In this document: piece after piece, positions 30,840 through 33,117 of the stretch
Layout of the letters: each line of letters begins with the position of its first letter
How positions within the stretch are numbered: the first letter of the stretch is position 1
Assembly (NCBI GenBank): GCA_902805855.1
Contig: CADCUJ010000022.1
Span: 1 to 46,678 of the forward strand
Direction of reading: 5' to 3'
Source of the DNA: an uncultured Nocardioidaceae bacterium
Lineage (GTDB): Bacteria > Actinomycetota > Actinomycetes > Propionibacteriales > Nocardioidaceae
DNA: 46,678 nt
Notes under the pieces: model-generated
What the model saw: only the letters and a program-made list of their open reading frames with translations
What the model was told of the DNA's origin: nothing
Databases searched by the model: none
Program-made: the position numbers and the translations under genes

Positions 30840-31079
30840 ATGACCACGACTCCCCAGCCACCTCCGGAGAACCCGCAGGGCGACCCACTCAGTGACGAGG
30901 ACATGGAGACTCTCAGCACCGGGACCGGACCGGGCCTCGGAGCGGACGCGGACGCCAGCGACGCTGATGCCGATGCGAGCGACGCGGACGCCGACGCGAG
31001 CGACGCGGACGCCGACGCCACGGACGCCGACGGCACCGACGGGGACGCCTCCGACTCGACGGACGGCGACGCCTCCTGA
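30840..31079 (+). CDS. Asp/Ala/Ser heptad-repeat peptide, candidate RiPP precursor
   Basis: 79-residue acidic peptide. Residues 1-34 look like a leader: MTTTPQPPPENPQGDPLSDE with DMETLSTG following and Gly-rich residues at the boundary. Residues 35-79 are built almost only from Asp, Ala, Ser, Thr and Gly. Three DADADA(S/T) heptads (41-61) are preceded by a partial unit and followed by degenerate ADGTDGDASDSTDGDAS. It has no signal peptide, cysteine or aromatic residue. The ATG has AAGGAG 5 nt upstream. Its stop overlaps the probable start of the JmjC/cupin gene. The precursor role is inferred from gene order and composition; a plain disordered acidic protein is the alternative. Confidence 0.7.
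   Translation: MTTTPQPPPENPQGDPLSDEDMETLSTGTGPGLGADADASDADADASDADADASDADADATDADGTDGDASDSTDGDAS
30960..31022 (+). repeat. Three 21-nt tandem repeats encoding DADADA(S/T)
   Basis: Units at 30960-30980, 30981-31001 and 31002-31022 each encode one heptad. Units two and three differ only in the last few bases, while unit one has synonymous T-for-G/C changes. This points to a recent duplication plus selection on the peptide. Confidence 0.8.
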
Positions 31080-32227
31080 GCGCAGCGGGCCGAGCAGAGC
31101 CGAACGCACTCTCACTGCTGTGCGGTGACACCCAGGCCTTCGTCGACAAGGTCTGGGCGTCACACATCCACGTCCACCACGCCGCTCCGCGTGATCTCGT
31201 CTCGCTGTTGTCCCTCGACGACGTCGACCATCTGCTGACGAGTACCGCCCTCCGGGCGCCGGCACTTCGCATTGCCAAGGACGGCTCGGTGCTGCCGACG
31301 AGCTCATTCACCAGGTCTGCGACCCTGGCCGGTCAACAGCTGACCGGGCTCGTCGACGTACCCAAGGTGCTCGACCTGTTCGACGGCGGTGCCACCGTCG
31401 TGCTCCAAGGGCTGCACCGCTACTGGCCGCCTCTCACCGAGCTGGTGCGGGGCCTCGAGCTCAGTCTCGGTCACGCCTGCCAGGCCAACGCCTATCTCAC
31501 CCCTCCCGGGTCGCAGGGGTTCGCGGTGCACAGCGACAGCCACGACGTGTTCGTCTTCCAGACCCACGGCACCAAGCAGTGGGAGGTCCACGACGACTCC
31601 GGTGCCAGACAAGTCCTGCTGGAGCCGGGCACCAGCATGTACCTGCCTACGGGCACGCCACATGCGGCGCGGGCCCAGGACGCGGCGTCCCTGCACGTGA
31701 CGGTCGGTGTCCACCAGACGACGTGGCGCGACGTGCTGTCACGGGTGGCGCAAGGCGTCCTCAGCGAGGACAGGTACGACGGCGCCGTACCAGCGGGCTT
31801 CCTCGACGACCCGACCGCCTTCCACCGCGAGCTGGGCAAGCACCTGGCGGCCTTCCAGCGCGAAGTTGCCGCCGCGGCTCCCGAGCCGGTCGTCGCCGGT
31901 GAGGTGGACCGGTTCCTGCGCAACCGGAACCCCGCTCTGCGCGGCGGGCTGGCGGACAGGGTCGCGCTGTCCGCGATCACCGACGAGACCGTGCTCCAGC
32001 GGCGAGCGACGGCAGCCTGCCGGATTCTCGCGCAAGGTGAGCGGCTACGTGTGCTGCTCGGGGACCGCGAGGTATGGATGCCGCTGCGCCTCGAGGAGGC
32101 GATGAGGTACGTCGCCGGGCGGGACTCGTTCTCGCCGATCGAGCTCTCCACCTGGCTCGACCAGCCCAGCCGCCTCGTGCTGGCCCGACGACTGGTCCGT
32201 GAGGGACTCCTGCGGGTCGGGCTTTGA
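31076..32227 (+). CDS. JmjC/cupin-4 family Fe(II)/2-oxoglutarate-type oxygenase
   Basis: Predicted hydroxylase of the cupin_4/ribosomal-oxygenase (RoxA/NO66-like) superfamily. Key segments are VVLQGLHRYWPPLTELV, LGHACQANAYLTPPGSQGFAVH, the metal-binding HxD in VHSDSHDVFVFQ and the distal His in PTGTPHAARAQ (about 152, 154 and 196 from the start used here). A C-terminal winged-helix-like region follows. The first canonical start is TTG 31208, but the frame is open and family-like well before it (ALSLLCGDTQAFVDKVWASH). I propose CTG 31076, overlapping the peptide stop as CTGA. Coupling to the peptide gene suggests the peptide is its substrate. The C terminus overlaps the next gene by TTGA. Confidence 0.8.
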   Translation: MSAAGRAEPNALSLLCGDTQAFVDKVWASHIHVHHAAPRDLVSLLSLDDVDHLLTSTALRAPALRIAKDGSVLPTSSFTRSATLAGQQLTGLVDVPKVLDLFDGGATVVLQGLHRYWPPLTELVRGLELSLGHACQANAYLTPPGSQGFAVHSDSHDVFVFQTHGTKQWEVHDDSGARQVLLEPGTSMYLPTGTPHAARAQDAASLHVTVGVHQTTWRDVLSRVAQGVLSEDRYDGAVPAGFLDDPTAFHRELGKHLAAFQREVAAAAPEPVVAGEVDRFLRNRNPALRGGLADRVALSAITDETVLQRRATAACRILAQGERLRVLLGDREVWMPLRLEEAMRYVAGRDSFSPIELSTWLDQPSRLVLARRLVREGLLRVGL

Positions 32228-33117
32228 GCGTCTCCTTCCGATGCTCGTCCAGCAGTGAGGAACGCGAGGAGTCCCTGGTCGGCAGCGCATCCACGGTCCG
32301 CTCGTTCCTTCTCGTCGAGGCCCCTGGGACGTGGGGCCTCGACGCGGTGCGCGACAACCGGCTGCCGGCGCCGGTGAAAAGCCGACTGGCTCGCGAAGCG
32401 AACCGGAACGGCGTCCGGCTGCTCTTCATTCGCCGGCACGGACGCCGCCGCTCACGCGCGATCACCGTGTTCGCGGCTCACGCGGACCCGCTGCGGCCGT
32501 GGCTGGAGACCACTGCCCTCGACGCGCCCGAGGACCTGTTGGGCATCGACCTGGCCAGCCTCGGAGCAGGGCGCTCGCCCGGCCTGGCCCCGCGCTCGGC
32601 GCCGCTGTTCCTCGTCTGCACCCACGGCAGGCACGATGTCTGCTGTGCCGAGCGCGGCAGGCCGGTCGCCGCCGCGCTGCACGAGGTGATGGCCGAGAGC
32701 ACCTACGAGGTCTCGCACATCGGCGGAGACCGGTTCGCCGGCAACCTGCTCGTGCTCCCCCACGGTCTCTACTACGGCCGGTTGACGCCCCAGGCCTCGG
32801 TCGCGCTGGCCAGAGGGCACATCGAGGGGCACCTGGACCTCGAGCACCTGCGTGGCCGCAGTGGGTACCCGTTCCCGGTCCAGGCCGCCGAGATCTACCT
32901 GCGCAACGACGTGGGTCGGACCGCGCTCGACGGGCTGCGGCTGGTGCGCCAGGCTCGCTCCGGGGCAGAGACGGCGGCCGAGTTCACCGACGGGGAGCGC
33001 TCGTGGATCGTCCGCGTCGAGACCGGCCGGGCCCTCCCGGAACAGCTGACCTGCCAGGCGAACGCGTCGAGCCGCGGAATGACCCATCGGCTGCTGTCGG
33101 TCGCCGAGTCCGGCTAG
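32224..33117 (+). CDS. Sucrase/ferredoxin-like thioredoxin-fold [2Fe-2S] protein
   Basis: 297-residue member of PF06999. The conserved N terminus FRCSSSSEEREESLVGSAS, WGLDAVRDNRLP, and the cluster motif VCTHGRHDVCCAERGRPVAAAL are present. HIGGDRFAGNLLVLPHGLYYGRL is also typical. The cysteines match thioredoxin-like [2Fe-2S] ferredoxins. Electron transfer to the neighbouring oxygenase, or iron supply, would be a natural role but is inferred. TTG 32224 overlaps the oxygenase stop by 4 nt, so translation is coupled. It converges with guaB1, 6 bp between stops. Confidence 0.87.
   Translation: MSVSFRCSSSSEEREESLVGSASTVRSFLLVEAPGTWGLDAVRDNRLPAPVKSRLAREANRNGVRLLFIRRHGRRRSRAITVFAAHADPLRPWLETTALDAPEDLLGIDLASLGAGRSPGLAPRSAPLFLVCTHGRHDVCCAERGRPVAAALHEVMAESTYEVSHIGGDRFAGNLLVLPHGLYYGRLTPQASVALARGHIEGHLDLEHLRGRSGYPFPVQAAEIYLRNDVGRTALDGLRLVRQARSGAETAAEFTDGERSWIVRVETGRALPEQLTCQANASSRGMTHRLLSVAESG

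Follow-up and report, generated by a model that had tools for sequence, protein, structure and literature searches.

A conserved actinobacterial cassette of an Asp-rich repeat peptide, a NO66-like oxygenase and a PF06999 protein: a candidate ribosomal peptide-modifying system

The stretch analysed here (the window) comprises 46,678 nucleotides of contig CADCUJ010000022.1 from an uncultured Nocardioidaceae bacterium. Three genes lie in a row on its plus strand, tightly packed within positions 30840-33117, and encode a 79-residue peptide, a JmjC_2 oxygenase and a Suc_Fer-like (PF06999) protein (Table 1). Judged from sequence, these genes form a conserved cassette with a precursor-like architecture, a correspondence between peptide and oxygenase types, and a specialised protein of the PF06999 family. 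They probably constitute a compact system resembling those of ribosomally synthesised and post-translationally modified peptides (RiPPs), in which the oxygenase would hydroxylate the repeats of the peptide, most likely at the beta-carbons of Asp residues.

Table 1. Features of the cassette (positions are those of the window)
Feature	Coordinates	Strand	Remarks
Candidate precursor peptide, 79 aa	30840..31079	+	Leader-like residues 1-33 (motif PLSDEDMET); Asp/Ala/Ser repeat core, residues 34-79
Asp-rich core	30939..31076	+	Partial ADADAS, three DADADAS/T heptads, then DADGTDGDASDSTDGDAS; best period 7
JmjC_2 (PF08007) Fe(II)/2-oxoglutarate-type oxygenase, ROX/NO66-like (ROX, ribosomal oxygenase)	31076..32227	+	Start codon uncertain; H152-x-D154...H207, K167
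Oxygenase C-terminal winged-helix-like domain, about residues 307-381	31994..32218	+	AlphaFold2 model; candidate leader-binding domain
Suc_Fer-like (PF06999) protein, thioredoxin-like ferredoxin domain	32224..33117	+	Motifs CTHGRHDVCC, SHIGGDR and C-terminal LTC

The oxygenase matches PF08007 (E 8.7e-20, 71 bits, cut-off 22) and the third protein matches PF06999 (E 2.2e-18, 67.5 bits, cut-off 34.9). The ATG of the 79-aa open reading frame (ORF) is preceded by a Shine-Dalgarno-like GGAAGGAG. The sequence of this ORF and the two family matches bear out the original prediction, made from the letters of the window, that the genes are real. The peptide itself has no family in Pfam (E<=1) or NCBIfam, and the peptides of seven relatives match no NCBIfam precursor family. 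Searches of the window peptide and one relative for EF-hand, thrombospondin-3 and RTX repeats gave no Pfam match at E<=0.1, low-complexity cores such as these scoring poorly.

The oxygenase start chosen by the ORF caller, TTG31208, falls inside an N-terminal region that is conserved among relatives, so translation must begin further upstream, where the frame is open and contains no ATG, GTG or TTG. From the sequence, the likeliest start is CTG31076, which overlaps the TGA of the peptide gene; the alternative to this start is an assembly base error within 31076-31210. Because the window offers no ATG, GTG or TTG for the oxygenase, a frameshift fusion with the peptide, or readthrough, was considered. 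This is disfavoured, since all 15 relatives listed carry a GTG or TTG at or shortly after the peptide stop (one also has an ATG), which fits ordinary translational coupling better. The start of the PF06999 ORF, TTG32224, overlaps the oxygenase stop (TTGA).

Chance low complexity is ruled out as the origin of the small ORF by a bias towards synonymous differences and by a base-rate count. Its Ala, Ser, Thr and Gly codons differ between repeats, chiefly in the third base, and in 123 peptides, that of the window included, 28% of the codon differences between repeat copies (1058/3725) are synonymous in the coding frame, against 14% in each other frame. The window holds no other stop-free stretch with at least 14 Asp per 40 residues; across 80 related loci (794,101 bp), 73 such stretches lie at the cassette site and 0 elsewhere.

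An oxygenase relative (E 1e-10) is present in 35 of 58 genomes, that of the window included. In close relatives the oxygenase gene is flanked by an Asp-rich ORF immediately before it and by a gene for a CxHGxxDxCC protein after it, while in more distant ones the peptide position is occupied by repeats like EGPADGGASGTPGVQDGGADGGA. A collection with one genome per species (84,980 species) contains at least 590 oxygenase relatives, and the best 80 of these, which were examined, all have actinobacterial titles, including metagenome-assembled genomes of Acidimicrobiia, Nitriliruptoraceae, Euzebyaceae and Egibacteraceae. On a first pass, Asp made up a fraction of at least 0.30 of an upstream ORF in 74 of the 80, and 0.25 in L095. 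The remaining five were three loci whose match lies no more than about 60 bases from a contig end (L033, L106 and L111), L073, which was later resolved, and L050, whose contig is as long as the source contig of L013, where the ORF is present. A PF08007 family search of 198 genomes of the phylum (29 matching) yielded further cassettes together with several JmjC_2 genes outside any cassette.

The pooled set comprises 141 distinct oxygenase stretches, which were collected through the oxygenase, freed of duplicates over the first 150 residues and classified by script. A PF06999 gene adjoins 119 of them whose upstream side is readable. In 118 of these (two of them, L041 and L089, close to an upstream edge) an ORF of the Asp-rich or DGGADGG type precedes the oxygenase, and L095, the 119th, encodes a weaker acidic repeat peptide, below the threshold. 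Many actinobacterial families thus preserve the small ORF of the original prediction next to the oxygenase. The other 22 stretches include six cut at the upstream edge (L001, the window's own stretch, L020, L033, L106, L111 and L151, the last lacking PF06999), the second fragments of broken oxygenase frames (L017 and L018) and four cut at the downstream edge (L022, L096, L097 and L138). L101, with a broken frame, L105 and L146 are labelled Asp-rich and have no PF06999 match, and seven more have neither neighbour (in the seven JmjC_2 stretches without PF06999, namely L123, L125, L130, L152, L153 twice and L154, no such ORF rises above the threshold).

The small gene has the organisation of a RiPP precursor gene, being short, placed directly upstream of the oxygenase, and composed of a conserved leader and a variable core. 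The N terminus had been described as leader-like, and the pattern L-x-D-D/E-D/E-I/M-x-T does recur in 114 of 126 peptides (at least two of the hits, those in L007 and L146, being spurious) and precedes variable Asp-rich repeats. Beyond residue 30 the 126 peptides consist of 28% Asp, 24% Gly, 13% Ala, 12% Thr and 8% Ser, with Cys almost nil, and their medians are 81 residues, 23 Asp and a net charge of -25; lengths and composition are slightly affected by wrong starts or frames in L007, L029, L105, L107, L122, L127, L142 and L146, whose Asp-rich parts, L146 apart, were nevertheless observed. At L146 the ORF upstream of the oxygenase carries another kind of acidic repeat, PTEDDENLDAPGEHSQDTGDE, in two copies.

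The spacing between Asp residues is mostly 2 or 3, and D-x-D-G occurs in 100 of 123 peptides. The DADADAS heptad pointed out originally is present in the window peptide, but this exact heptad is not general among the relatives, where the repeats are mostly DADGTDG- and DGDATD-like and, in another oxygenase clade, of the form EGPADGGA...DGGADGGA. In the cores of the latter type (DGGADGG, type II) Asp is less frequent and stands mostly before Gly. The two core types largely fall with two oxygenase clades, with 6 label changes against 22.5 in shuffles (0/200 as low) on an 86-row oxygenase tree in which Nocardioides was thinned, the window's own oxygenase was omitted as a duplicate of L001, and L095 and L146 were set to type I by hand; the labels are regex-based, so that L038 and L048 are labelled II yet carry type I, and the label of L146 comes from another ORF. 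Within the window's own family either core type occurs, following the oxygenase clade.

Residues H152, D154, H207, K167 and N138 of the oxygenase (numbered from CTG31076) do not vary in either of two alignments, of 16 and of 26 members; the HxD...H metal site that had been recognised in this cupin_4/JmjC protein is intact. A profile search of the PDB retrieved NO66 (1.7e-30) and E. coli YcfD (1.6e-10), and in the profile alignment the metal-site and Lys positions coincide with those of NO66. The AlphaFold2 model (mean predicted local distance difference test score, pLDDT, 91) has the full-length ribosomal-oxygenase fold, matching human NO66 with Z 27.3 over 365 residues at 23% identity, followed by MINA53 (Z 25.5) and the bacterial YcfD/RoxA types (Z 17.2-18.5). 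NO66, MINA53 and the YcfD-type enzymes beta-hydroxylate His or Arg. The statement that related oxygenases hydroxylate protein side chains is thus in agreement with the fold and metal site, which match enzymes so titled. The cassette oxygenase has in common with NO66/RIOX1, MINA53 and YcfD/RoxA the whole fold, C-terminal domain included, as well as the HxD...H and Lys positions. Unlike them, it adjoins an Asp-repeat peptide gene and a PF06999 gene, shares only 23% identity with NO66, and is patchily distributed, with 19 of 46 related genomes of at least 90% completeness lacking a match at 1e-10. A phage origin finds no support in 50,697 phage records, in which tblastn gave no oxygenase match at 1e-5.

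In the model, residues 307-381 of the oxygenase begin with strands and continue with three helices. Bregman et al. 2025 (PMC12710340) define a RiPP recognition element (RRE) by this order, namely a strict beta3-alpha3 succession in the part of their text available. No match to PqqD or any other RRE family of Pfam was found in 15 oxygenase members.

Distant PF08007 oxygenases on Streptomyces plasmids sit in RiPP-like settings. At L152:4655-6050 one has among its neighbours a 48-aa ORF, an S9 peptidase gene and genes for an ATP-binding cassette (ABC) transporter; the 48-aa peptide contains, by eye, LEPDEIEVI, reminiscent of the leader motif of the cassette. Another, at L154:390-7821, is near YcaO-TfuA, methyltransferase and carbamoyltransferase genes, and at L153:3989-8801 two cupin genes occur with a major facilitator superfamily transporter and an M13 peptidase.

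The third protein had been described as a PF06999 thioredoxin-fold ferredoxin, an assignment upheld by the profile match above the cut-off and by the modelled fold. The model has a pLDDT of 93, and its thioredoxin-like ferredoxin domain matches 1m2a_B with Z 12.4 over 87 residues; the matches are to the thioredoxin-like [2Fe-2S] ferredoxins of Aquifex and Azotobacter. Across the 58 genomes some PF06999 relative is found in 35 of 35 oxygenase-positive and 9 of 23 oxygenase-negative ones. The His pair of yeast Apd1 is HxxxH. Apd1-type ferredoxins belong to the same family, and the Apd1 pocket is described, in the text available, as containing two Cys and two His (PMC11126956). The Cys2-His2 (HxxxH) ligand set differs in the linked PF06999 proteins, in which Asp takes the position of the second His and a Cys is conserved in the C-terminal region. 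Of 123 such proteins 120 could be assigned; 119 of these have HxGGD and one has HxGGC. Among 20 unlinked PF06999 proteins fetched, 15 are of the His type (HxxGH-type) and 2 of the Asp type, with 3 not resolved by the script. One of the two Asp-type proteins, at L173, is encoded close to the end of a contig, and the oxygenase of the same genome likewise runs into a contig end. The C-terminal Cys, C277 in LTC, is invariant in a 22-sequence alignment, and the LTC pattern occurs in 100 of 106 PF06999 proteins judged full-length; in two of the six misses (L126 and L129) the Cys lies in LSQC, and the rest are cut, broken-frame or wrong-frame matches. By these sequence features, the linked PF06999 protein is a specialised partner, distinct from its unlinked paralogues.

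The other Asp-type unlinked protein, L169 (HxGGD, LTC; L183:5992-7757), is encoded next to a PF01497 periplasmic-binding-type gene, on its downstream side; the genome (G049) has no oxygenase match, and the PF01497 neighbour hints at iron handling. In seven loci of the Nocardioides group (L064, L065, L066, L070, L072, L077 and L081) an extra His-type PF06999 paralogue lies upstream of the cassette.

The neighbourhood was surveyed in 25 loci of about 11-20 kb for ORFs of at least 100 aa. Across families, only the oxygenase (in 25 loci) and the PF06999 gene (in 23) keep recurring; the remaining shared groups represent the cassette genes read antisense or in an alternative frame, or reflect synteny within a single genus (L112-L116). 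ABC-type ATPases are present in 6 of the 25 loci at varying distance, and no dedicated regulator was seen in them. A larger biosynthetic cluster was sought in the same survey and not found. A k-mer survey of 113 upstream regions revealed no clear site for a shared promoter motif or iron box.

A working scheme may be proposed from these data. The small gene would yield a precursor with a conserved N-terminal segment and a core of Asp-rich tandem repeats. The oxygenase would bind the leader, perhaps via its C-terminal winged helix, and with Fe(II), O2 and 2-oxoglutarate would hydroxylate many residues of the repeats, most likely at the Asp beta-carbon. The Suc_Fer protein, with its changed candidate [2Fe-2S] ligands, may be the pathway's partner for electrons or iron. 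The outcome would be a strongly acidic peptide that carries many hydroxyl groups and plausibly binds metal; with neither a protease nor an exporter linked to the cassette, it would act inside the cell or exit by general routes. It is likely that the peptide is the substrate of the oxygenase. Family chemistry and gene linkage point to the Asp beta-carbon as the main target, with a chance somewhat better than even, while metal binding by the product is a tentative suggestion.

Several observations weigh against this scheme. Neither a maturation protease nor an exporter is shared between lineages in the 25 loci, the same situation as originally reported for the window. The winged helix is a general feature of the ROX fold and aligns with that of the ribosomal oxygenases, and no PqqD/RRE match in Pfam accompanies it; leader binding by this domain therefore stays a candidate function only. 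The nearest characterised relatives of the oxygenase hydroxylate ribosomal proteins. Linkage within the cassette is imperfect: no PF06999 gene was found at L105, where the upstream ORF is Asp-rich (its upstream side is partly masked), or at L146, where acidic repeats are seen by eye upstream of the PF08007 oxygenase; at L125 the ORF is acidic and non-repetitive and PF06999 is missing; and genome G055 encodes a divergent oxygenase with neither neighbour, its only PF06999 being a His-type paralogue elsewhere. Finally, type II cores are less Asp-dense, so that the modified residue could be other than Asp.

The fold of the oxygenase is the reason to retain another explanation, namely that it is a bacterial ROX acting on a ribosomal or other housekeeping protein, with the peptide as its regulator, pseudo-substrate or assembly partner. 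The structural matches to NO66, MINA53 and YcfD/RoxA over the full length, the NO66 profile match and the lack of linked export or maturation genes are all compatible with such a role. However, the patchy presence of the oxygenase in nearly complete genomes would be odd for a ribosome modifier, and it speaks against this explanation together with the tight linkage: hardly any intact cassette lacks the peptide, and the type of core goes with the oxygenase clade. More distant JmjC_2 relatives, moreover, occur in RiPP-like clusters. A ROX role of this kind is thus considered unlikely.

It is similarly improbable that the oxygenase modifies the peptide at another residue or in another way, by Ala, Ser or Thr hydroxylation, Asp-Gly oxidation, desaturation or cross-linking, so that the product is not a poly-hydroxyaspartate. 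Asp is the richest core residue overall and recurs in type II cores, and the closest oxygenase families carry out beta-hydroxylation; on the other hand, Gly, Ala, Thr and Ser too recur regularly along the repeats, Asp is scarcer in type II cores and usually followed there by Gly, and Fe/2-oxoglutarate RiPP enzymes are chemically varied, as far as the available part of PMC13097080 goes. The extreme acidity of the peptides could also suggest an unmodified, disordered buffer for iron or other metals, the oxygenase and the PF06999 protein being iron-dependent sensors or regulators in the same operon. The PF01497 neighbour of one HxGGD/LTC PF06999 gene, in a genome without an oxygenase match, agrees with this, but it is a single, anecdotal example, and a simple buffer needs neither a conserved leader-like motif nor a match between core and oxygenase clade; this explanation is very unlikely. 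Enzymatic hydroxylation of the repeats is accordingly the reading preferred here.

The only related hint found in print is one sentence in Bregman et al. (PMC12710340), who place the nearest homologues that fish and algal JmjC (PF08007)-RRE proteins have in bacteria, at about 30% identity, in RiPP-like contexts. These proteins have the Pfam family PF08007 in common with the cassette oxygenase; the part of the article available describes neither a precursor or repeat peptide nor a PF06999 partner, a leader motif or a distribution, and the homologues it refers to may or may not belong to the present family. A description of the cassette was not found in the open-licence literature, where absence is weak evidence, and four of the repeat strings matched no paper there. 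The main text of the decRiPPter paper (PMC7794033) contains none of six terms looked for, and the accessible part of PMC13118837 mentions an unspecified cupin cluster.

Chemistry of the proposed kind has precedents. CanE beta-hydroxylates Asp in the linear precursor of the lasso peptide canucin A, aided by the leader-binding CanB1 (PMC9266682), and is likewise an Fe/2-oxoglutarate enzyme acting on the Asp beta-carbon; in contrast to the cassette peptides, canucin A is modified at a single C-terminal Asp, and the passages available mention neither Asp repeats nor a PF06999 partner. Beta-hydroxyaspartate is also present in ribosomal peptides made by nitrilobacillin-type multinuclear non-haem iron-dependent oxidases (MNIO) and alphaKG-HExxH (alpha-ketoglutarate-dependent) hydroxylases (PMC13060819) and by SmaO/SmaX (PMC13097080). 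MNIO and HExxH enzymes belong to other families and, in the accessible text of PMC13060819, act at single or few sites. Given CanE, PesHI and SmaO, Asp beta-hydroxylation in RiPPs is already known and the chemistry would not be new. The new elements would be the precursor class, the PF06999 partner and the action of a NO66-like enzyme on Asp repeats. A bolder and rather doubtful extension is that actinobacteria across the phylum make a hitherto undescribed class of poly-(beta-hydroxy-aspartyl) ribosomal peptides via a NO66-like oxygenase, as polymers for iron or other hard metals that are loaded or unloaded by a dedicated Cys/His/Asp [2Fe-2S] protein; this would further hint at peptide-modifying bacterial relatives of the eukaryotic ribosomal oxygenases.

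If the proposed hydroxylation of the repeats is correct, many actinobacteria would make a multiply hydroxylated acidic peptide that has so far gone unnoticed, and the cassette would represent a simple three-gene route to repeated hydroxyaspartate. The linked PF06999 proteins would provide a natural set of [2Fe-2S]-type proteins with Asp replacing His at a ligand position. The ROX/NO66 fold would gain a peptide-tailoring role in bacteria.

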